Below, one piece after another: positions 18,300 to 55,029 of a stretch of 64,000 nt of DNA. The DNA is taken from NCBI GenBank assembly GCA_947649645.1, contig CANSSP010000007.1, forward strand, positions 62,001 through 126,000. The letters are read 5' to 3'. The notes beneath the pieces were generated by a model. That model saw nothing but the letters and a program-made list of their open reading frames with translations, was not told where the DNA came from and searched no databases. The stretch comes from an uncultured Roseburia sp. (GTDB lineage Bacteria > Bacillota > Clostridia > Lachnospirales > Lachnospiraceae). The translations under genes and the position numbers were made by a program. Numbering within the stretch: position 1 is the stretch's first letter; every line of letters begins with the position of its first letter.

Positions 18300-18356
18300 C
18301 TCTTTCCGGACTGGCCTGCAACATTACCGGTCAGCCGGAAAGAGGTTTTCTATTTT
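18300..18356 (+). terminator. Terminator after the CNNM gene
   Basis: CTCTTTCCGG pairs with CCGGAAAGAG, extended by CTG/CAG across a bulge, followed by GTTTTCTATTTT. It slightly overlaps the 3' end of the convergent B-repeat gene. Confidence 0.8.
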
Positions 18357-20755
18357 AAAAACCGTTCAAAAAAGCGCTCCAGTGCGCCGCTGTCCTTTGT
18401 CTTTCCTGCTCCTTCTGCGTCTATATACTCTTTCATTTTTATTACTTCCTCATGTGTAATGATATAAGTCTGTTCCGGCGTACAATTCTTCATATTCGCA
18501 AACGCGCTCATAAGCGTTGCCATATACTCTGGCCTTGTCTTCCAGACAGACTCATCCTTTAATCCTCCCTTCTCATATGGAGCATTCAGATACGTTTCAT
18601 TGATAAACCGCGTGGTGCCTTCTGGTTTTACAGCCACCGCCTCCGTATCCACAACGTATACTCTGATCTGTTTTTCATAAATGCTGCCAGCACTATCCAC
18701 CACAGTCAGATTTTCCGTACAGCTCCCACCATGTTCAAACTGTGTAAAATCTGCCGCCCGGTAATCCGGGATGGAAAAAGATGTCCCGTCCCGATGGAAC
18801 CCCGGTGCAATCGGACTCCCGTCCTCCCTGTCTGAAGCCGTCGCATGACGTAACAGTTCTGTCTCTGTAATATACCCGCTCTGCGCCTGTTCCAGCGTAT
18901 AATAAAGATCTTTTGCAGCTATCCAGGGACAATCATCCCACACCGCATACAACAGCACAACCGCGTCTTCCTCTTCTGCCAGATTCTTCACAGACTGCCC
19001 CGCCTTCCACTGTGGTGTAAACGAATCCTTTCCGTTCTCAGGCGCCCATCCCAGAAACACGGATGGATATACCCTCTCTTCAATCGTCGTCTCCGACGGC
19101 ACAATCGTTCCATCCTGCATCTGTGCAGTGACATCCACGCCACCGCGCGTATATTTCCGATAAGCAGCCGAACCGTCTGGCAAAACGATATCCTGATCAT
19201 ACTGCACGATCCAGTCATCTATATGCTCCACTTCCATTCCTCCATTTGGAACAAACCGGATTGTATATGGATTCGCCTCTGCGACGGCAGTCATTTCTAC
19301 ATCCATTGCCGGCATCTCAAATGAAAAGACTGCCGTATCCGCCGAATAAGCCCCGGTCCAGTCCTTCCACCGGTACCCAGGTCTGACCGAGGCCATTACT
19401 GTAACCTCAGAACGATAGGCATAGCGTCCGCTGCCATCTACAGACGCAATCCCGGCTCCGGCATTGAGTGCGACATGGTAATGATTGATCCTCCACTGTG
19501 CATACAGTGTCAGATTTCCGGTGTCGCTGACTTTCTGCGCATCCGCGTATGATTTTCCTGTTCCTTCCGGAATCGTATTCCATCCGGCAAAAGAATATCC
19601 TGTTCTGGTAAATCCATTGGCTGTCAGGCGGCTGGTTTTTCCATAATTACAGATCATATCAGCTGTGGAACCGCCATCTGCCCCGTTTCCTTCAAAGTGA
19701 ACGATGTACGTGTCCATCCACTGCGCATACACCGTAATGGATTTTTCTCTGAATCTGGTTCCATCCGTAAAATCCAGATATGTGGCAGCCCGATACGCTA
19801 TATCCTGATCAAACGATTTTCCGCTGCCATCTGCTTTTGTGTTCCATTCCGCCCCGTCTTTACGCCGGTAACCTTCTCTGACCAGGCCAAATGCCGAAAA
19901 GTTGTGAAGATCATCCGACTGATCATACTTTATTTTTCTGGTGCGTGTGATATTGCCGCCTGTTGCACCATTGCCGTCATACTTGATCTCCAATTGGGGA
20001 TGACGCAGGTTAATCGTATAAACTCCCTCAACTGCATGACTGCCGTACACGCCGGTCTGCACCAGACTCAGCTGCATGGTAAACGTCTCTGTCCTTGGCG
20101 CGTGATAAACTTCCCTGCACAGCGATGATTCTCCCTGATTTTTCCAGCCATCCTCACCATCATAAAACTTTGTGTTGAATCTGGTCAGCCCGTCCCAGAC
20201 TTCCTGCTCCGGTGCCGGATAGGTAAACGCCTCTCTCTCATATGAAAATTCGATCACAAGAACCATATACTGATTTGTCTTGTAGATCACCTCTCCGTCT
20301 TCGCCTGTGCCAGTCACATAATTACCATTTTTGTCTTTCCATGCTTTTTCAATATATCTGGTGGAGCCTTGTTTTGTCCTATGCACATTTACGATCTTTA
20401 TATTGTGATTATTTACAGTTCTGCCCTTCACCACTGACAGTTTTACTGTCTGCGGCTTTGTATCGTCCGTCGATTCATATTCTGCTTTTATCTTTACTGA
20501 TGACATTTTATCACCGATGACTTTCAGCGTAAAATAACCCGTTTTCTTCCAGATCTCCATGTCTTCATCCTGTTCAGGATACTCTTTTTCTACATTCGGA
20601 TGTGATTTCGCCCCAACCGCCAGAGTCTCTTTCCACTCTCCGCCATAGACGCACTGTATGACGCCGCCCGGCAACGGCAGAAAAACCGCAAGGCTGCACA
20701 ACAGCAGAAAAACTGCCGCCCGCACCACACTTCTTCGTGATCTATCTCTTTTCAT
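18350..20755 (-). CDS. Large secreted B-repeat (Listeria-Bacteroides repeat) protein
   Basis: An 801-residue exported protein. Residues 1-38 form a signal peptide (basic start, then AAVFLLLCSLAVFLPL). Several InlB B-type/FLG repeats follow, recognised by GYSFAGWNTIPEGTG ending in LTLYAQW, an earlier unit ending in ITVYAQW, and a third near VFLGWAPENG ending in LLYAVW. The C-terminal about 180 residues are not recognised. No LPXTG motif, lipobox or C-terminal membrane anchor is seen, so it is either secreted or held by the neighbouring pilus. The ATG at 20755 follows AAAGGAGAT. It is the last gene of the Tad-like locus, and its partner at 20934 ends in the same repeat type. Confidence 0.8.
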   Translation of the reverse strand: MKRDRSRRSVVRAAVFLLLCSLAVFLPLPGGVIQCVYGGEWKETLAVGAKSHPNVEKEYPEQDEDMEIWKKTGYFTLKVIGDKMSSVKIKAEYESTDDTKPQTVKLSVVKGRTVNNHNIKIVNVHRTKQGSTRYIEKAWKDKNGNYVTGTGEDGEVIYKTNQYMVLVIEFSYEREAFTYPAPEQEVWDGLTRFNTKFYDGEDGWKNQGESSLCREVYHAPRTETFTMQLSLVQTGVYGSHAVEGVYTINLRHPQLEIKYDGNGATGGNITRTRKIKYDQSDDLHNFSAFGLVREGYRRKDGAEWNTKADGSGKSFDQDIAYRAATYLDFTDGTRFREKSITVYAQWMDTYIVHFEGNGADGGSTADMICNYGKTSRLTANGFTRTGYSFAGWNTIPEGTGKSYADAQKVSDTGNLTLYAQWRINHYHVALNAGAGIASVDGSGRYAYRSEVTVMASVRPGYRWKDWTGAYSADTAVFSFEMPAMDVEMTAVAEANPYTIRFVPNGGMEVEHIDDWIVQYDQDIVLPDGSAAYRKYTRGGVDVTAQMQDGTIVPSETTIEERVYPSVFLGWAPENGKDSFTPQWKAGQSVKNLAEEEDAVVLLYAVWDDCPWIAAKDLYYTLEQAQSGYITETELLRHATASDREDGSPIAPGFHRDGTSFSIPDYRAADFTQFEHGGSCTENLTVVDSAGSIYEKQIRVYVVDTEAVAVKPEGTTRFINETYLNAPYEKGGLKDESVWKTRPEYMATLMSAFANMKNCTPEQTYIITHEEVIKMKEYIDAEGAGKTKDSGALERFFERFLK

Positions 20756-20820
20756 CAATCTCCTTTCTCAGATTTTATTCCACATCTCATTCCCCTCTTC
20801 CGTTCCCGTCCTCTGCCTGC

Positions 20821-20855
20821 GCGGCAGCTGATTGCGTTCCGGTGGCAGCTGCCGC
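20821..20855 (-). other. Intercistronic stem-loop before the B-repeat gene
   Basis: GCGGCAGCTG and CAGCTGCCGC form a perfect 10-bp stem around a 15-nt loop in the 178-bp gap between the TadE-like and B-repeat genes. No T-run follows on the minus strand, so it more likely affects mRNA processing or stability than termination. Confidence 0.5.
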
Positions 20856-20933
20856 ACACCTCAGGGGCTGCGAAGAGCAACGTGATCAGATGGTTATTGT
20901 TTCACCTTTACAGGTAAAACTTTTGCTTTGCAA

Positions 20934-21542
20934 TTATCCCCACTGGGCATAATATACCCGTTCCTGTTCCACCGGCAGAGAAAAGTCAGCCATGTAATCA
21001 TTGCTGTCCTTCCAACCAAGAAAACGCCCGTTTCCACTGAGCGGTTCTGCCGGAGCAGCAACCCGGTCGCCTTCCATCACGGAATAAACCTTGTAACATT
21101 CCCCGCCGGAAAGCATCGCTTCTTTTGTCGGGTAAAAACGCACACTGCAATATACCGGCTCTTTTGTCTCGCATGGTTCCCATATTACCATTCGCTCCCA
21201 TTCCTCCACTCCGGTGCTGCCATCCGGCTGTACAAATTCTTCCTGCACGCGGACGGCCAGCGCTCCTTTTTCCACATCTGCTTTCATCACCTGCACCGTA
21301 ACCTTTGAATCAGTGTCCAGCGCAGCCGCGAGCATCTCAACACTTTCTGCCACAGCTTCCTCCTGCGTATCGGGATACAGATGATTTTCTGTCATCATAC
21401 GTTCAAGTGTTTTTTCAAGCGCCGACGACAGGCTGCTTTCCAGTTCCACTCTTCGGTTCATCCTGCCCATCACTGTCATAAGAATGGCCAGCGTCAGCAC
21501 CCCGGCCGCTGCACTCATAAATATTATAACTATATTCTTCAT
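20934..21542 (-). CDS. TadE-like pilin-type protein ending in a B-repeat
   Basis: A 202-residue protein with an N-terminal membrane helix (about residues 4-24) followed by a helical stretch (RMNRRVELESSLSSALEKTLERM), the layout of TadE-like minor pilins. The last about 55 residues look like an InlB B-repeat: GGECYKVYSVMEGDRVAAP, GRFLGWKDS, ADFSLPVEQERVYYAQW. So the exposed end carries the same module type as the large protein that follows. The ATG follows AGGAGGATGTGAA. It starts 2 nt after the preceding gene ends, so the two are translationally close. Family assignment is by layout, not by a strong motif. Confidence 0.6.
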   Translation of the reverse strand: MKNIVIIFMSAAAGVLTLAILMTVMGRMNRRVELESSLSSALEKTLERMMTENHLYPDTQEEAVAESVEMLAAALDTDSKVTVQVMKADVEKGALAVRVQEEFVQPDGSTGVEEWERMVIWEPCETKEPVYCSVRFYPTKEAMLSGGECYKVYSVMEGDRVAAPAEPLSGNGRFLGWKDSNDYMADFSLPVEQERVYYAQWG

Positions 21543-21543
21543 T

Positions 21544-22035
21544 TCACATCCTCCTTTCGTTTACCGGCACCGCGATAATGCATGTACTTCTTTTTCTTCT
21601 GGCATCCACCGCAGTCACTTTTAAACGGTAAATTCCGGAATTTCGAAAATCCACCTCTTTCGTTCCCGGAAGAACAGGAAAAAAGGTCCCGCCTGTACCA
21701 GGTTCACTGACCGCAAGCAGACTCACGTGAAGCTCCTCTCCGTCCGCATCCCTTGCCTTGATCTGATCTGAAACCACAAATATGCCGGTATACACAATGC
21801 CGGTATTCTGATAAACAATCGTGGGCATCGCTCTGCCTGCCTCACTCTGATACACCTCAAATTCTCTGTATACCTTATTTTCTGTTTCACCTGTTTCCAG
21901 CTCTGCGCCGATAATGGAAAAAATACCTCTGTTTCCCTCATCGTCTTTTATCCCGGCAAATAGTAATAAAAAAAGCAGACCGAGCAAAACTGCATCCAGC
22001 AGAAACATTCCGTATGACACAATAACCTGTTTCAA
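21544..22035 (-). CDS. Single-pass membrane protein of the Tad-like locus
   Basis: A 163-residue protein with one N-terminal membrane helix (MFLLDAVLLGLLFLLLFAG) and an outside part predicted to be rich in beta strand (MPTIVYQNTGIVYTGIFVV, SGIYRLKVTAVDARRKRSTCIIAVPV). I do not recognise the family. Its position between the mini-proteins and the TadE-like gene suggests a minor pilin or assembly factor. The start is TTG at 22035 behind AGGAGTGCG. The gap to the upstream mini-gene is 9 bp. Confidence 0.6.
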   Translation of the reverse strand: MKQVIVSYGMFLLDAVLLGLLFLLLFAGIKDDEGNRGIFSIIGAELETGETENKVYREFEVYQSEAGRAMPTIVYQNTGIVYTGIFVVSDQIKARDADGEELHVSLLAVSEPGTGGTFFPVLPGTKEVDFRNSGIYRLKVTAVDARRKRSTCIIAVPVNERRM

Positions 22036-22044
22036 TCCGCACTC

Positions 22045-22191
22045 CTATCCACAAATACCATTCATATACAAACCGACAATCTCACACAAAACACCTCCAC
22101 GCTCCAGAAAAGAAACGTACAGTGCAATCAACGCCATCCCCGAGACAATCTGAAGAAATCCCGTTCCATAATGTTCCATAATATATTCCAT
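22045..22191 (-). CDS. 48-residue membrane mini-protein of the Tad-like locus
   Basis: A short frame starting at ATG 22191 behind a strong AGGAGGATC site, coding 48 residues: MEYIMEHYGTGFLQIVSG, then a hydrophobic stretch and a Cys-containing tail. The first residues (E-x-x-M-E-H-Y-G) resemble the 54-residue mini-protein at 25335-25499 (MEQVMKHYGNA), so the two are likely paralogues. The size and single hydrophobic helix fit a Flp-type pilin. It is 9 bp from its downstream and 12 bp from its upstream neighbour. Confidence 0.65.
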   Translation of the reverse strand: MEYIMEHYGTGFLQIVSGMALIALYVSFLERGGVLCEIVGLYMNGICG

Positions 22192-22203
22192 ATCCAGATC
22201 CTC

Positions 22204-22317
22204 CTAAACAGCACAGACATAACGCAGCAGAGCAATCAGCAGGCCCACAGCCAGCCCGCCTGCCAGAAGTCCAAGCAATGCCTCTCCCAGTTCTCCCGTC
22301 ACAATTTCAAATCCCAT
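22204..22317 (-). CDS. 37-residue hydrophobic mini-protein of the Tad-like locus
   Basis: The frame starts at ATG 22317 behind AAAGGAGAAGAGA and codes MGFEIVTGELGEALLGLL followed by a hydrophobic end. Nearly the whole chain after residue 10 could cross the membrane. Neighbour spacing (12 bp downstream, 54 bp upstream) and the strong ribosome site argue that it is real. Its function is unknown; a small pilin-like subunit or assembly peptide is the simplest idea. Confidence 0.55.
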   Translation of the reverse strand: MGFEIVTGELGEALLGLLAGGLAVGLLIALLRYVCAV

Positions 22318-22371
22318 TCTCTTCTCCTTTCCTGACACCGGACGAATAAACGACCGTCGCTCTTCCCTCTT

Positions 22372-22707
22372 TTACCGTGCAATCCCTCTTGTAACTCTTG
22401 TATGCGAAATCCCAAGAAGAGGTATTTCATACGTATAGGTCAGTATCACCTCCGCCGAACACACATCCTGATTTTCATCATATATACACTTTGTCACAAC
22501 AAGGGAATATCCACACGCCGCGGCCTGTTTCCTGCAGCTTTCCACAACATCCGGATTAAAATTACTGTTCTCCAGCTCCGCAACTACAGCAGCCTTGTAT
22601 TCCCTTGCAGCGGCCACATCTCCGCTTACCGTAAGAACCGCAATACACAGAAAAAGATTTAAAACCAGTATCGTAAGCGTGGAGAACGCTCCTATAATAT
22701 GTTTCAC
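22372..22707 (-). CDS. Pilin-like single-pass protein of the Tad-like locus
   Basis: A 111-residue protein with an N-terminal hydrophobic helix (about residues 5-27, FSTLTILVLNLFLCIAVLTVS) and a short soluble part with three Cys (VESCRKQAAACGYSLVVTKCIYD). This layout fits a TadE/TadF-like minor pseudopilin, although the usual conserved Glu is not obvious. The start is GTG at 22707 behind GGAGGGATGTAA. It directly abuts the end of the TadB/TadC-like gene, which indicates an operon. Confidence 0.6.
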   Translation of the reverse strand: MKHIIGAFSTLTILVLNLFLCIAVLTVSGDVAAAREYKAAVVAELENSNFNPDVVESCRKQAAACGYSLVVTKCIYDENQDVCSAEVILTYTYEIPLLGISHTRVTRGIAR

Positions 22708-24246
22708 TTACATCCCTCCTGCAACTGCCAGCATTTTTAGCATCAGCACCATTCCGACTGTAAGATCCGTCAGAAGCTTTACCGTGGCAGCAGCCACCGG
22801 ATAAGAAAAAAGCAGCTTCATGCGAAATGCCGTCTTTTCATTCTCAATCTCATCTGCCATGCCCTGCATCTTCCCGACACGTTCGAGCAGATGTCCCATC
22901 TGTATTCTGATATTGCCCGCACCATTTTCCGCAATCGCATGGAGCATTTTCATACAGCTCTGCACTTCGGGCAGATCAAATTCTGAACAGAAACCGGTAT
23001 ATGCCTGCAGTTTTCCGGGCGACTCTTTAAGCCGCTCTGTCAAAAGCCTTAACTCTTTCTGCAATACTGGCGCCGCTCCTCCCATCGACCGCACAATAGA
23101 AACCTGTACATTATTGTTCTGCAGTAACAACGCCATTCCTGTCAGCCACTGTGGCAATGCCAGATACATCTCTTCCGTCACATCTTTCTTTGCCAGATAA
23201 TATCCCGTCTTATGCTGCAGCAATAGAAAAATAAAAAGAGACAGGCTGACCAGACAGATCGCGCGCTTCCCTGCAACAAACAGAATGACTGTCACGAGAA
23301 ATGCCGGGACCGAAAAAAGAATACTTTTCCGGCGCTCTTTCTTCTCGTCATATTGCGCGATCATATCATAACTTTTTTCGATATAGTCTGTTTCATGAAA
23401 AACCGTATCCTTTAACCAGTCGTCTGTAAGGTTTTTCGTACTCTTCACAAAGACATGAAGGAGAAACAAAATAAACAGAACAGATGAAATCTGGATAATC
23501 TGAATCTGAAACACATCTGTCGGACTTTGCACCGAAAACATCTGCTTCATCGCATCCAGCACATAGAGCGCAACAGCACATAACATGGTCGCAACAAGAA
23601 TGGAAATAATATTGTCCGTATGGCTCCTCTTTTTCTCCGCCTGTAAACGATAACCCCTCTGCTTCCAGCGCTCCACATCCTCCAGGAGAAAGAGAATGGA
23701 TTCATCCACCTCCCCGCCATACTCTTCCGCATTGATCAGAAGGTCATGCACCAGATGGATCTTCGTGCAGCGGTACGCCTCCTCAATGATTTCCAGACTT
23801 TCGCCATGGATTCTCTGTCCGTTTCCTGCCCTTCCGGCTTCCAGATGAAAAATCGCCGCATCCAGAACCTGCCGCATCTGCCCTCCGTCAAAAATCTCCC
23901 TGCTCTCCTTTAATGCACTGATCACTTTTCCCGTCTTCTGAAACGAGTACAGCATCTGTTCCATATAGGACGCCGCGTCTGCAAACCGCTTCTGCTCATA
24001 CATTTTCCGATACATATCCAGGACAAGAATCGGCAGCACAATCAGCACAGCCAAAACGACGGCTGAAAAACAGACCGGTTTTAACCGAAACAAAAAACCC
24101 ACCGCGCTGATACCCGCCAGCGTACCTGTAATCAGCAGTACGTGCGATTTCCATGAAAAATGATATCCATAAATATGCACCTCCTTCTCCAGATTTCTGG
24201 GATTCAGGAGTTTCAGATTCTCCCACAATCGTTTCTTACCGTGCAT
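22708..24246 (-). CDS. TadB/TadC-like inner-membrane platform protein (type II secretion F family)
   Basis: A 512-residue membrane protein. Two hydrophobic helices lie near the N-terminus, two pairs lie in the middle (about residues 210-265 and 300-335), and one or more at the C-terminus. Soluble helical domains between them (ASYMEQMLYSFQKTGKVISAL and LPQWLTGMALLLQNNNVQVSI) resemble the paired T2SSF domains of TadB and TadC. Tad systems usually have two such proteins of about 300 residues; here one chain seems to cover both halves. It would form the platform next to the ATPase. The ATG overlaps the stop of the ATPase gene by 1 nt (TAATG). Confidence 0.75.
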   Translation of the reverse strand: MHGKKRLWENLKLLNPRNLEKEVHIYGYHFSWKSHVLLITGTLAGISAVGFLFRLKPVCFSAVVLAVLIVLPILVLDMYRKMYEQKRFADAASYMEQMLYSFQKTGKVISALKESREIFDGGQMRQVLDAAIFHLEAGRAGNGQRIHGESLEIIEEAYRCTKIHLVHDLLINAEEYGGEVDESILFLLEDVERWKQRGYRLQAEKKRSHTDNIISILVATMLCAVALYVLDAMKQMFSVQSPTDVFQIQIIQISSVLFILFLLHVFVKSTKNLTDDWLKDTVFHETDYIEKSYDMIAQYDEKKERRKSILFSVPAFLVTVILFVAGKRAICLVSLSLFIFLLLQHKTGYYLAKKDVTEEMYLALPQWLTGMALLLQNNNVQVSIVRSMGGAAPVLQKELRLLTERLKESPGKLQAYTGFCSEFDLPEVQSCMKMLHAIAENGAGNIRIQMGHLLERVGKMQGMADEIENEKTAFRMKLLFSYPVAAATVKLLTDLTVGMVLMLKMLAVAGGM

Positions 24247-25322
24247 TACATCCCCTCTCTTATATACTTCTCCCAGTCTTTACACCGGAACGGCTCGCTG
24301 ATGCCCGCATACCGGAATCGCTTTTCAATCTCTGCAGGCAGTTCTCCCGACACCATTTCTCCGTCCTTTACAAGCATATAAACTCTGTTATTTGTTTCTT
24401 CCCGGCTGAAAAAGCAGACCTGGTCCATATATCGCTTTACCTTCCCGCCAGGCTGACGTATACACCGGATCAGAATCCCGACATCCACATACCGGTATAT
24501 CCGATTTTCCATCCGGTCTGCATCATTGACATTGTTCATCATATTCTGAATCCGGTCCGGAAGCTTCCTCACATCGTCCAGATGGATCGTGGTAAACCCG
24601 TTTACCCCCGTACTCCACTGTTCCAGAAGAGACGTCACCTCCACCGACCGGGCCTCGGAGAGCATCAGCCATTTCGGATTCTGCCGCAGACTGGCCTTGA
24701 TCGCGTCCGTATAGTCAAATCCCGGTCCAACCCTCAGCTCCACCGTATCCGCACCCGGATGTATCTCCCCATAGTGGATTTCCAGTGAATCCTCAATTGT
24801 GATAACACGCTCCTCTGCCGGTATAAACCGCATAAAAAACTTGGCACATTCGGTCTTACCCGCACCGGGTTCTCCGCCAAACACAAAATTCATTCCTGCC
24901 TTCACACAGTTGATCAGAAGCTGCAGGATCTCTTCATCACAATACCCGCCCTGAAGCATCCCCTGTATACTGCTTCTGACCACACAGGGGGATTTACGGA
25001 TGCAGATACTCGTCCCGGAAGCCGCCGCCGAATTATGGATAATACTGATGCGAAGCTCTCTTGTATCTGCCTCCAGTACTTTGTTGGCATTGTTAAACTG
25101 CCTGTTCACACAATTCGACATATTATGTGTAAACCGGTCGATAAACGACTCCGTAAGCTCATCCTCTGCGGGATACCGTCCTTTTTTCAGGTCTGTAATC
25201 CAGAGCCGGGAACCGTTATAATCGATATCCGTGACATCTTCCTGCGTGATATATTTCCAGAATACGCCAAACTGCTCTGCCGTCGGCTCAAATGTAACCA
25301 CTTCACGCATTCCTTCTCCCAT
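24246..25322 (-). CDS. CpaF/TadA-type secretion ATPase
   Basis: A 358-residue ATPase of the type II/IV secretion superfamily. Visible elements are the Walker A GGEPGAGKTE (about residue 150), the Asp box VITIEDSLEIHY, the Walker B region KWLMLSEAR, and the His box FTTIHLDDVRKLPDRI. CpaF/TadA drives assembly of Tad (Flp) pili. The N-terminal domain is short compared with many CpaF proteins. The start at 25322 has GGAAAGGG very close; ATG 25310 (MREVVTFEP) is an alternative with better spacing. It is read between the mini-pilin gene and the TadB/C-like gene. Confidence 0.88.
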   Translation of the reverse strand: MGEGMREVVTFEPTAEQFGVFWKYITQEDVTDIDYNGSRLWITDLKKGRYPAEDELTESFIDRFTHNMSNCVNRQFNNANKVLEADTRELRISIIHNSAAASGTSICIRKSPCVVRSSIQGMLQGGYCDEEILQLLINCVKAGMNFVFGGEPGAGKTECAKFFMRFIPAEERVITIEDSLEIHYGEIHPGADTVELRVGPGFDYTDAIKASLRQNPKWLMLSEARSVEVTSLLEQWSTGVNGFTTIHLDDVRKLPDRIQNMMNNVNDADRMENRIYRYVDVGILIRCIRQPGGKVKRYMDQVCFFSREETNNRVYMLVKDGEMVSGELPAEIEKRFRYAGISEPFRCKDWEKYIREGM

Positions 25323-25334
25323 CCCTTTCCGCCT

Positions 25335-25499
25335 TTACGGCAACACATTCATCTTTTCAAAAAAGCCGGTCAGCGCATTCTTAAACTCGGCTGCGACGTA
25401 GCCGTCCGACGAGAGTGCAGCGACAATAATTGCGCCGAGCGCCAGCAGCACAATAACAGCCAGTATGGCATTTCCGTAATGTTTCATTACCTGTTCCAT
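25335..25499 (-). CDS. 54-residue Flp-like mini-pilin
   Basis: The frame starts at ATG 25499 and codes MEQVMKHYGNAILAVIVLLA followed by an alanine-rich helix and a short polar tail ending in KMNVLP. Size, a single hydrophobic helix near the N-terminus and position just before the CpaF-type ATPase fit a Flp-type major pilin. Its N-terminus resembles the 48-residue protein at 22045. It is 12 bp upstream of the ATPase gene and is preceded by the dispersed leader element, which supplies GAGGAAG as ribosome site. Confidence 0.7.
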   Translation of the reverse strand: MEQVMKHYGNAILAVIVLLALGAIIVAALSSDGYVAAEFKNALTGFFEKMNVLP

Positions 25500-25568
25500 A
25501 ATCTTCCTCTTTTCTGCGCCGCTTTTCTCTGCAGATCTGTGGATGCGGCGCAGACACAGACCCGTAAC
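25500..25568 (-). repeat. Dispersed leader element, copy upstream of the mini-pilin gene
   Basis: On the minus strand a CTGCGCCGC/GCGGCGCAG perfect 9-bp stem encloses a 26-nt loop and is followed by AAAAGAGGAAG and the start codon. The gcgcagacacag block is shared with the copies before typA, dapL and purB. Confidence 0.65.
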
Positions 25569-25572
25569 TTAT

Positions 25573-26244
25573 TCACTTGTTTTTCTGTTCGCAAAGGGCC
25601 CCGCCATATACAAACCCGGTACGGCGCAGCAGAAATCGCGAAATTGTTTTTAACTCATCCAGAAACCGCTGGTTTCGCAGGCTGCCCGGCATGCGGTTCC
25701 TCCACACAAAATTCATGGCTCTGCCGCGTGCAGATGCATAATCAAATTCTGTATTTTCAGAAAGGATCATAATCTGCCCTCTCTCCGCGCGATACACCCG
25801 CTCAAGATATTGCCTGTCAAGCCTGGACTGACTGCAATAATTGGAAATCAATATCAGACTCTGCGGCAGAAACCGGGCTTCCTCCAGAAAAAAGTGATGA
25901 ATCTCCCGCTCATCCTGCCGCAGATTGACGACGACAAGTTCTGCCTGTTTTAAGATCCTGCGTTTTTTACAATCCATTCCGCTCCCACAATCGACAAAAC
26001 ACAATTTTTCCCGCATTTTACTTTCTGTGGCCGTGCTGTGGCATATTGTATAACTTCCAGGTCTTTCCGCAGATACCCGCCGTTTTCCCAACGGACTCTT
26101 CCCGGCCGTTCCGCGCCTCTGCGTATCCGCAGTGTACAGTCCAACCTCTACCTCAGGATACAGCATGGGAAATACACTGGCTATCGCACGCATATTGATC
26201 CCTGCATTACTCTGAGCGCTCTCTCCCCAGAACGCAACCTTCAT
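25573..26244 (-). CDS. TadZ/CpaE-like protein with degenerate P-loop
   Basis: A 223-residue soluble protein. The N-terminus MKVAFWGESAQSNAGINM has the shape of a MinD/TadZ-type P-loop, but the deviant Walker A Lys-Gly pattern is missing (SAQSNAGIN). FVDCGSGMDC and ELVVVNLRQDE match the second and third strands of that fold, while ILISNYCSQSRLD resembles the NKxD region. TadZ proteins mark where Tad pili assemble, and several are known to have lost ATPase residues. The ATG at 26244 is chosen because the ATG 12 bp upstream lies inside the GAGGAT ribosome site. It is the first gene of the Tad-like locus. Confidence 0.65.
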   Translation of the reverse strand: MKVAFWGESAQSNAGINMRAIASVFPMLYPEVEVGLYTADTQRRGTAGKSPLGKRRVSAERPGSYTICHSTATESKMREKLCFVDCGSGMDCKKRRILKQAELVVVNLRQDEREIHHFFLEEARFLPQSLILISNYCSQSRLDRQYLERVYRAERGQIMILSENTEFDYASARGRAMNFVWRNRMPGSLRNQRFLDELKTISRFLLRRTGFVYGGALCEQKNK

Positions 26245-26445: not shown

Positions 26446-26474
26446 ATCATACACTTTCACGCCCGATCTGTAAA
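26446..26474 (-). promoter_or_regulatory. Probable promoter of the Tad-like locus
   Basis: On the minus strand TTTACA (26469-26474) and TATGAT (26446-26451) are 17 bp apart. The transcript would have a leader of about 190 nt (26257-26445). That leader contains a TCACAG/CTGTGA dyad near 26363-26383 and matches no riboswitch that I recognise. The opposite strand carries the promoter region of the sugar-sensor-like gene, with TATAAT at about 26536. Confidence 0.6.
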
Positions 26475-54658: not shown

Positions 54659-54690
54659 GTGTCGGCGGTAAAGAATCTTACCGCAGTAAG

Positions 54691-55029
54691 TGGACCAGAT
54701 GGGAGTCGAACCCATGTCCGAAGACAAATTCACTGCCCTTCTACGAGTGTATTCTGTGATTTGATATTCCCTCCGCCGCACCTCCGCAGACAAAGTTACG
54801 GTTTTGGTAGCTTCATATTACGCCCGCGGACTCAAAGCTTTGCCCGTGTCGTTTCCTGCATCGTCGAAGCCGCTGCCCCCGGGTACAGGTGCCCGGGGAG
54901 CGACTGCTGCTCAATTAGGCAGCGATTGCTAAATTATCTTCAGCGTTTAATTTTAAGTGTGGAATTTAACGCATCCCGTGCGACTCGCTTCTCCAGCTTC
55001 ATCATCCCCGTCGAAACCAGTACTGGCCC
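54691..55029 (-). ncRNA. ssrA: Transfer-messenger RNA
   Basis: About 339 nt on the minus strand. The 5' end GGGCCAGTACTGGTTTCGACGG and the 3' end GGTTCGACTCCCATCTGGTCCA are the tRNA-like parts; GGGCCAG and CTGGTCC form the acceptor stem. The mRNA-like part (54915-54944) codes the tag AEDNLAIAA then TAA, a clostridial-type tag. The terminal CCA is not encoded (discriminator A is followed by CTTA). With SmpB it rescues stalled ribosomes. Its first base is the last base of the smpB stop codon, so the two share one transcript and RNase processing must free the RNA. Confidence 0.96.

Follow-up and report, generated by a model that had tools for sequence, protein, structure and literature searches.

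Within a stretch of 64,000 nucleotides from an uncultured Roseburia sp. (GenBank assembly GCA_947649645.1, contig CANSSP010000007.1, positions 62,001 to 126,000), here called the window, ten genes (g1 to g10) are encoded one behind the other on the minus strand from position 26244 to 18350, which raises the question of what kind of surface machine they specify. The original prediction, made without database searches, had seen in them a compact Tad-like pilus locus with B-repeat surface proteins. After our analysis, they represent a real and conserved system that is unnamed in the literature searched; it belongs to the type IV filament superfamily and may even deserve a class by itself. The results we consider firmest are a separate clade of the assembly ATPase, a recurrent polar residue at position +5 of two types of pilin candidates, and the genomic coupling between the machine and a C-terminal domain (CTD) of the large surface protein g10; the filament itself we infer. 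With a probability of roughly 0.55, we read the system as a compact filament machine of the Tad/archaeal type IV kind, which would build a filament of very small pilins (micro-pilins) and carry g10 docked by its tail.

Little is known of how Roseburia and related Lachnospiraceae, which rank among the major commensals of the gut, attach to their surroundings. A compact machine that occurs in about one eighth of the sampled genera of this family, with an exchangeable surface protein, would offer a handle on attachment to mucus, to fibre, and between cells. It may represent an as yet undescribed mode by which Gram-positive bacteria of the gut expose adhesive or enzymatic proteins. Literature searches covering titles and the beginning of abstracts yielded no description of the gene set, which is weak evidence of novelty with most subscription journals outside their scope.

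Assembly ATPase, platform, and g1

As predicted, all ten open reading frames (ORFs) were found in the same direction and at the places given in the ORF list. Each of the ten start codons is preceded by a purine-rich, Shine-Dalgarno-like stretch, and the spacing of adjacent genes ranges from an overlap of 1 base to a gap of 178 nt. Among the ten proteins, solely g3 (T2SSE) and g10 (B-repeats) passed the curated cut-offs of Pfam and NCBIfam. Scans with family models matched none of them to a peptidase or secretin family, in agreement with the predicted lack of a prepilin peptidase (TadV) and of a secretin in the locus.

The gene product of g3 (24246..25322, minus strand as for all genes of the locus) was identified as an assembly ATPase of the T2SSE/VirB11/CpaF type (PF00437, 8e-18; 64.7 bits compared to a cut-off of 24.9). 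Comparison of its profile with the PDB resulted in 2oap, which we take to be archaeal, as the best match, followed by VirB11-like proteins and then CpaF. The profile match to TadA of a canonical Tad locus in the same genome reached 99.8%. In a tree of 67 ATPases, all 27 sampled rows of the system formed one clade on a long stem (100/100), separate from 19 canonical TadA rows (100/99), with 17 PilB/PilT-type rows as a third group. Relative to PilB/PilT, the system clade is placed next to the TadA group, with four further ATPases near TadA, its exact position being limited by a long-branch warning from the program and by a sampling without archaeal and VirB11 rows. In outline, the system would work like a Tad pilus, and its ATPase is nearer to TadA than to PilB/PilT. 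Other kinds of ATPases, which fall neither into the canonical TadA group nor into the system clade, were encountered at L191, L192 (G038), L193, and L194 (G103); the locus L191 also encodes an A24 peptidase of 173 amino acids (aa) and, by reading, a SAF-like protein. In the genome of the window, another ATPase, PilT-like by reading, is encoded on contig 26.

The adjacent gene g4 (22708..24246) encodes a membrane platform of 512 aa, which according to profile comparisons probably consists of two T2SSF-like halves. It is a single, undivided gene in the window and also in its relatives (alignment A1), as had been proposed. A T2SSF match was obtained for 2 of 39 members of the family (best 1.2e-4) and a DUF2207_C match likewise for 2 of 39 (2.8e-4), while g4 of the window itself had no T2SSF match. 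Both halves aligned with the TadB profile of the same genome (probabilities of 75% and 36%); against the TadC profile, the probability was 4% and neither half aligned. Tad proper has its platform split into TadB and TadC, whereas archaeal type IV pili possess, as in our system, a two-domain platform in one gene (both described in PMC6668835). Unlike the latter, the system of the window is bacterial and, in the genomes sampled, occurs almost exclusively in one family.

The best NCBIfam model for g3 was VirB11, which would suit a device for DNA uptake or transfer. Its 91 bits, however, remained far below the equivalog cut-off of 250, and no VirB partner family in Pfam or NCBIfam matched any of the ten genes. 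The locus is surrounded by what appear to be housekeeping genes (guaB, hisA, CorC-like, purB, and purF, assigned by eye from ORFs), a search of 72,556 plasmid records revealed no match to the platform, and the protein coupled to the machine is a surface protein, so that we hold a DNA device for highly improbable. Among 50,697 phage records, two weak platform matches were detected, namely MT837507.1 (L196) and MT835474.1 (L197). Both are unannotated human faecal scaffolds named 'UNVERIFIED Bacteriophage sp.', possibly of bacterial DNA, with platforms of 30% and 21% identity. Based on the plasmid and phage results, an origin from a mobile element was rejected, as was a role in anti-phage defence, for which PADLOC gave 0 matches with the 5 of 10 proteins tried.

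The first gene, g1 (25573..26244), encodes a soluble protein of 223 aa with, by eye, a degenerate MinD/ParA-like look, and might be an accessory TadZ analogue. It revealed neither a Pfam match nor a profile match to the TadZ of the same genome, the TadZ side being one sequence, and homologues were found in just 14 of 50 compared loci; the designation as TadZ-like was therefore too strong.

Candidate micro-pilins and minor pilins, and the resident Tad locus

The proteins g2, g6, g7, and g8 share an N-terminus of the type M-x-E-I-x-E-E-Y-G, i.e., a methionine, about six residues rich in E, K, or H together with I, V, or F, then Y or F and a glycine, directly followed by a hydrophobic helix. Micro-pilin candidates are g2 (54 aa; 25335..25499; MEQVMKHYG/, the slash marking the proposed cut), g6 (37 aa; 22204..22317; leader MGFEIVTGELG/, 2 residues above the usual length), and g7 (48 aa; 22045..22191; MEYIMEHYG/TGFLQ with Q at +5), while g8 (163 aa; 21544..22035; start codon TTG; KQVIVSYG/MFLLD with D at +5) is a minor pilin candidate with an extracellular domain. 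In the case of g6, a start at an upstream GTG was set aside; the ATG at 22317, which has a Shine-Dalgarno sequence, is most likely. Profile comparisons connected g2 with g7 (97.3%), g6 with g7 (97.3%), and g2 with g8 (86%), an iterated g6 model recovered g6 of the window as homologous to the g6 proteins of relatives with a 9-residue leader, and in an alignment of 45 g2 and g7 sequences from 83 listed references (A7), M1 and G9 were nearly invariant. Two nearly identical tandem copies of g2 lie upstream of the ATPase gene in L057 and L068, fitting a subunit needed in quantity, i.e., the major subunit.

In the leader of a prepilin, the residue at -1 is a glycine. Since the conserved glycine of the micro-pilins was taken as this residue, an acidic residue was expected at +5, in line with the known rule of E or D at this position of processed pilins (stated in PMC3244431). 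Sequences were collected by start codon, the 9-residue signature, the kind of residue at position 4, and a filter for hydrophobicity, in which at least 10 of the next 20 residues belong to VILFMA and at least 15 to AVILFMGCSTWY. The resulting sets included 50 g2 sequences from 45 loci and 42 g7 sequences from 41 loci; they omit g6 of the window with its 11-residue leader and still include a few misplaced entries (in the g8 set, one that is g9 of L068, and in the g2 set, a second one from L087 that is shifted upstream). Of the 42 g7 sequences, 17 had a polar residue (E, D, Q, or N) at +5, with one such residue elsewhere in +2..+16, and in g8, E or D occupied +5 in 10 of 39 sequences and none of the other 14 positions. 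After thinning to less than 60% identity, 15/39 (g7) and 8/36 (g8) remained, while g2 (0/50) and g6 (0/23) had no polar residue at +5. The filter depletes polar residues generally and not at one position.

The +5 signal thus supports a pilin origin of the micro-pilin set and a probable processing of at least g7 and g8. An alternative alignment as leaderless Flp with E5-Y6-G7, in which EYG would resemble the Flp core, is less preferred, since +5 after the glycine is the sole recurrent polar position in +2..+16; for g2 and g6, the choice is less decided. The missing +5 acid of g2 and g6, the lack of a conserved cleavage glycine in g5 and g9, and a locus without a peptidase would also agree with an envelope complex that forms no filament, for instance a membrane-bound assembly for adhesion or signalling that draws its energy from the ATPase and contains the micro-proteins as uncleaved single-pass subunits. 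What speaks against such a complex is that the glycine of the micro-pilins hardly varies, that g7 and g8 show the +5 signal, and that an assembly ATPase with a platform is otherwise known from filaments; we regard it as quite improbable.

Two further proteins were considered candidate minor pilins, namely the single-pass protein g5 (111 aa; 22372..22707; present in 46 of 50 loci, alignment A4) and g9 (202 aa; 20934..21542). The AlphaFold2 model of g9 (mean predicted local distance difference test, pLDDT, of 89.6; predicted template modelling score of 0.58) displayed a long N-terminal helix of 51 residues, a small alpha-beta head, and a C-terminal B-repeat domain (residues 129-202; 20937..21158). 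A Foldseek search with this model, considering the top 50 matches and a second look, listed no TadE, TadF, or Flp among the matches, which excludes nothing. At the sequence level, g5, g8, and g9 of the window matched no TadE, TadF, or TadG family in Pfam at E values up to 1, 32 relatives of g5 matched no TadE, TadF, TadG, or pilin family in Pfam at 0.1, and for relatives of g9, TadE, TadF, and TadG were absent from the best 25 of 29 families; the g5 profile gave 4% against TadG and 0.2% against TadE of the same genome. Designating g9 as TadE-like was hence too strong. No window protein matched the Flp families PF04964 and PF16982 at E values up to 1, and the match of g2 to the canonical Flp profile was limited to the C-terminal helix (60%). 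Within A7, two members touched Flp_Fap and two Flp1_like at sub-threshold level (best E value 0.01) and an Arch_flagellin match reached 0.049, these weak Flp and flagellin matches standing among unrelated weak ones. Of the two outcomes named in advance as contradicting the original prediction, neither was observed: the small proteins resemble pilins in part by the motif, with the +5 signal in two of the four types, and g9 does so by the outline of its model, while proteins of the g10 type do occur together with the machine. In the distant loci L067 and L074, g8 is much longer (374 and 364 aa), with an extracellular part resembling, by eye, leucine-rich repeats of the BspA type.

A canonical Tad locus was identified on contig 15 of the same genome (14000-32000), making the locus of the window a second system. 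It is flanked at each end by an A24 peptidase and comprises a TadZ-like gene, TadA, TadB- and TadC-like genes, an Flp1 pilin with the motif G/VGVVE, and TadG- and TadE-like proteins, where roles beyond the peptidases, the ATPase, and Flp1 were assigned by reading. The genome's two A24 prepilin peptidases, which the original prediction had advised to look for elsewhere in the genome, are both located here, so that the idea of a missing peptidase and unprocessed pilins was dropped. As prepilin peptidases can serve several systems (described in PMC6668835), sharing would explain why none is encoded in the window locus. An A24 peptidase was present in 25 of 25 genomes carrying the system, yet also in 199 of 200 genomes of the family, so that its presence in carriers indicates no link to the system. 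Flp1 was found above the cut-off in all 26 carriers tested, i.e., canonical Tad and window-type systems coexist. By eye, a flagellin-like gene and a gene for an FHA-domain protein adjoin the canonical locus.

Could the locus of the window then be an ordinary Tad pilus with diverged and badly annotated genes, and nothing new in kind? Its ATPase matches TadA and groups with it and not with PilB/PilT, both platform halves weakly match TadB, and two micro-pilins touch each of the Flp models; like the canonical locus, it combines a CpaF/TadA-type ATPase with very short pilins and probable minor pilins with head domains, and no secretin was seen in either. However, the platform is undivided, the window proteins revealed no TadV, TadE, TadF, TadG, or Flp family match, the ATPase clade stands apart from the 19 canonical TadA proteins with full support for both groups, and the canonical pilin Flp1 is additionally present in every carrier tested. 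By several defining features, the system is not a Tad pilus, and in contrast to the canonical locus it has a CTD protein; we regard an ordinary Tad pilus as improbable. Gram-positive tad-like loci in which no Flp was recognised (Imam et al. 2011, PMC3244431) likewise belong to Clostridia and carry Tad-like biosynthetic genes; in the part of that source on which we rely, they are described with tadV, tadZ, and rcpC, whereas the window locus has no tadV or rcpC.

The C-terminal domain of g10 and the proposed machine

The last gene, g10 (18350..20755; ATG at 20755), encodes a secreted surface protein of 801 aa with B-repeats (PF09479, 1.6e-15; PF18998, 5.1e-11), which assign it to the B-repeat fold. 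Its N-terminus is a hydrophobic helix of the signal-peptide type, read from the sequence and also present in the model, and by eye no LPXTG-type motif was seen at its end. The model (mean pLDDT 57.7, residues 27-381 mostly unreliable) resulted in Foldseek matches to general adhesin and cadherin-like repeats, and the CTD (18353..18610) was modelled as helices with moderate confidence. These last c. 86 residues are conserved across g10 proteins with differing bodies (alignment A2). Among 21 g10 proteins scanned, the two B-repeat families were detected in 12 and 6, beta-helix in 4, ChW in 3, and subtilase domains in 3, so that the B-repeat was rejected as the linking feature. The B-repeat of g9 was also rejected as the basis of docking, as g9 stops before it in L043, L068, L074, and L077 and the CTD protein is kept.

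Searches with the tail profile based on A2 revealed exactly one copy in the genome of the window. In 200 genomes of the family, each of a different genus, the CTD was found in 21, of which 20 belong to the 26 platform-positive genomes and a single one to the remaining 174 (Fisher test, 20/6 versus 1/173, 2.9e-21, uncorrected for kinship). The single platform-negative genome (G001) is a 74%-complete assembly, in which g9 lies directly upstream of g10 on a contig of 4.4 kb. Of the six platform-positive genomes without a CTD match in this search (G008, G034, G066, G143, G168, and G181), G181 revealed the tail in locus L078 with a local model, and in G066 the contig ends early. In a further A2 search of 20 carrier genomes, two of which (G861 and G122) are apparently identical, the tail was found in 19, the match in G854 being a fragment of 57 residues. 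Five loci without an adjacent g10 (L039, L054, L060, L062, and L071) have a CTD protein on another contig, with the tail found in this way in G850 (contig 19), G857, G860, G861, and G038; the same applies to L049 and to G856, but with further copies of the system in the genome. This argues for a pairing with the machine and not for neighbourhood alone.

What links g10 to the machine is thus its C-terminal domain of c. 86 residues and not the B-repeats. The suggested tie between a pilus or pseudopilus and g10 is supported by this coupling, with proteins of the g10 type accompanying the machine, but the constant element is the CTD instead of the B-repeat. As g10 shows no LPXTG-type end by eye, the tail domain may be what holds it to the cell. 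In many relatives, though not in the window, an extra protein of c. 180-555 aa with a secreted, lipoprotein-like, or membrane-anchored look precedes g10; it is located between g9 and g10 in L042, L047, L048, and L052 and directly before g10 in L151, L152, L153, L156, L157, and L158, and could serve g10 as an anchor or a partner. Downstream of g9, the g10-less loci L039, L046, L049, L054, and L060 run, by eye, toward a hisA-like gene, which is likewise located downstream of the window locus, so that g10 seems to have been lost or moved from this site.

Starting from the observed gene set, the ATPase clade, the common micro-pilin N-terminus, the +5 signal of g7 and g8, the predicted fold of g9, and the CTD coupling, we propose the following mechanism. 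Sitting on the undivided platform g4, the ATPase g3 would assemble a thin filament of micro-pilins with g2 as the likely major pilin and g6 and g7 as small adapter pilins. The leaders of the micro-pilins would probably be cut behind YG by a prepilin peptidase from the canonical Tad locus. The minor pilins g5, g8, and g9 might come together at the tip as a complex that initiates assembly and bears head domains, among them the B-repeat of g9. The surface protein g10 presumably exits via the Sec route; its conserved CTD would then keep it attached to the machine, with the tip as the probable site, and its variable body may contact mucus, glycan, or other cells.

The same components could instead form a machine for export or display similar to the piston of a type II secretion system (T2SS), in which a pseudopilus stub of micro-pilins pushes the Sec-exported g10 through the thick wall, with the CTD as a tag and without a long filament. 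Mostly one CTD protein per genome and interchangeable bodies (subtilases, beta-helix) would fit a cargo tag, the micro-pilins are very short, and the HIJK pseudopilin complex of the T2SS touches secreted proteins (PMC10191384). We nevertheless consider a pseudopilus rather unlikely, since g10 appears to bear its own Sec-type signal, there is no outer membrane that the protein would have to pass in a monoderm cell, and the tandem copies of g2 in L057 and L068 are as expected for a major subunit.

A filament with docked g10 finds parallels in known systems. The Kil Tad-like pilus of Myxococcus xanthus (PMC12075869), likened here by description and not by sequence, combines Flp-like adapter pilins with interchangeable tips of TadE/F/G-like minor pilins; in contrast to our system, it belongs to a diderm, and a separate Sec-exported CTD protein is not described in the sections of that source considered. 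In type IVa pili, PilC/PilY1 is a large modular non-pilin tip protein on the filament, comparable to g10 by description, and modular pilins likewise carry grafted adhesive domains (both in PMC10191384); different from PilC/PilY1, the constant part of g10 is a small C-terminal domain. Going one step further, the system may constitute a separate class of bacterial filaments, a reading we offer as tentative, in which an archaeal-like undivided platform, co-assembling micro-pilins of c. 35-60 residues, docking via the CTD, and a peptidase borrowed from the resident Tad locus would come together. After cleavage, the micro-pilins would then measure c. 26 residues at the shortest, and the CTD would let one machine carry unrelated proteins such as a B-repeat adhesin, a beta-helix protein, or a subtilase. 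Its undivided platform and its pilins, which approach the lower limit of size, may bring it close to a minimal type IV filament, which would be useful for the question of how filaments are started and capped.

Distribution and further features of the window

In the family sample (one genome per genus), the platform was detected in 26 of 200 genomes. A profile of 39 platforms matched 4 of 295 genomes in the order sample, all of the same family, 7 of 391 in the class sample (two within the family, two strong matches outside, and three marginal ones), and 2 of 398 in the phylum sample, namely the window's own genome and a marginal match. Altogether, these counts describe a system largely of Lachnospiraceae. 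The two strong matches outside the family (G798 and G571, loci L158 and L159) possess most of the gene set including the CTD protein, and 25 loci found via the ATPase were mostly labelled Roseburia or Lachnospiraceae, in agreement with a Roseburia-like host. One named strain with the system is Roseburia hominis An869 (L062).

Examination of the gene order in other genomes, as the original prediction had suggested, showed that the gene set recurs across 50 compared loci, after removal of L064 (same locus as L062) and L063 (ATPase of at most 28 residues). The platform was present in 49, g5 in 46, g9 in 44, g8 in 41, and g1 in 14 of them, while a CTD protein was located downstream in 22 and upstream in 3; several genes are missing because contigs end. 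Gene order is constant in the Roseburia-like loci and variable in distant ones, where g5 lies behind g8 (L066, L067, L071, L072, L074, and L080) or g9 behind g10 (L077 and L078). Some genomes harbor multiple copies of the system (L039 and L052; L047 and L048; L049, L056, and L057). Of the members listed for each alignment, 38 of 38 were used for A1, 18 of 23 for A2, 38 of 42 for A3, 31 of 35 for A4, 26 of 46 for A5, and 20 of 23 for A6.

Upstream of g1, a consensus scan indicated a promoter-like site on the minus strand (26446..26474; TTTACA, spacer of 17, TATGAT; 10 of 12 matches), which is weak, as 15 such sites occurred in the region compared to a mean of 12.1 after shuffling. Elsewhere in the window, a transfer-messenger RNA gene on the minus strand (54688-55029) was the sole Rfam match at the gathering threshold.

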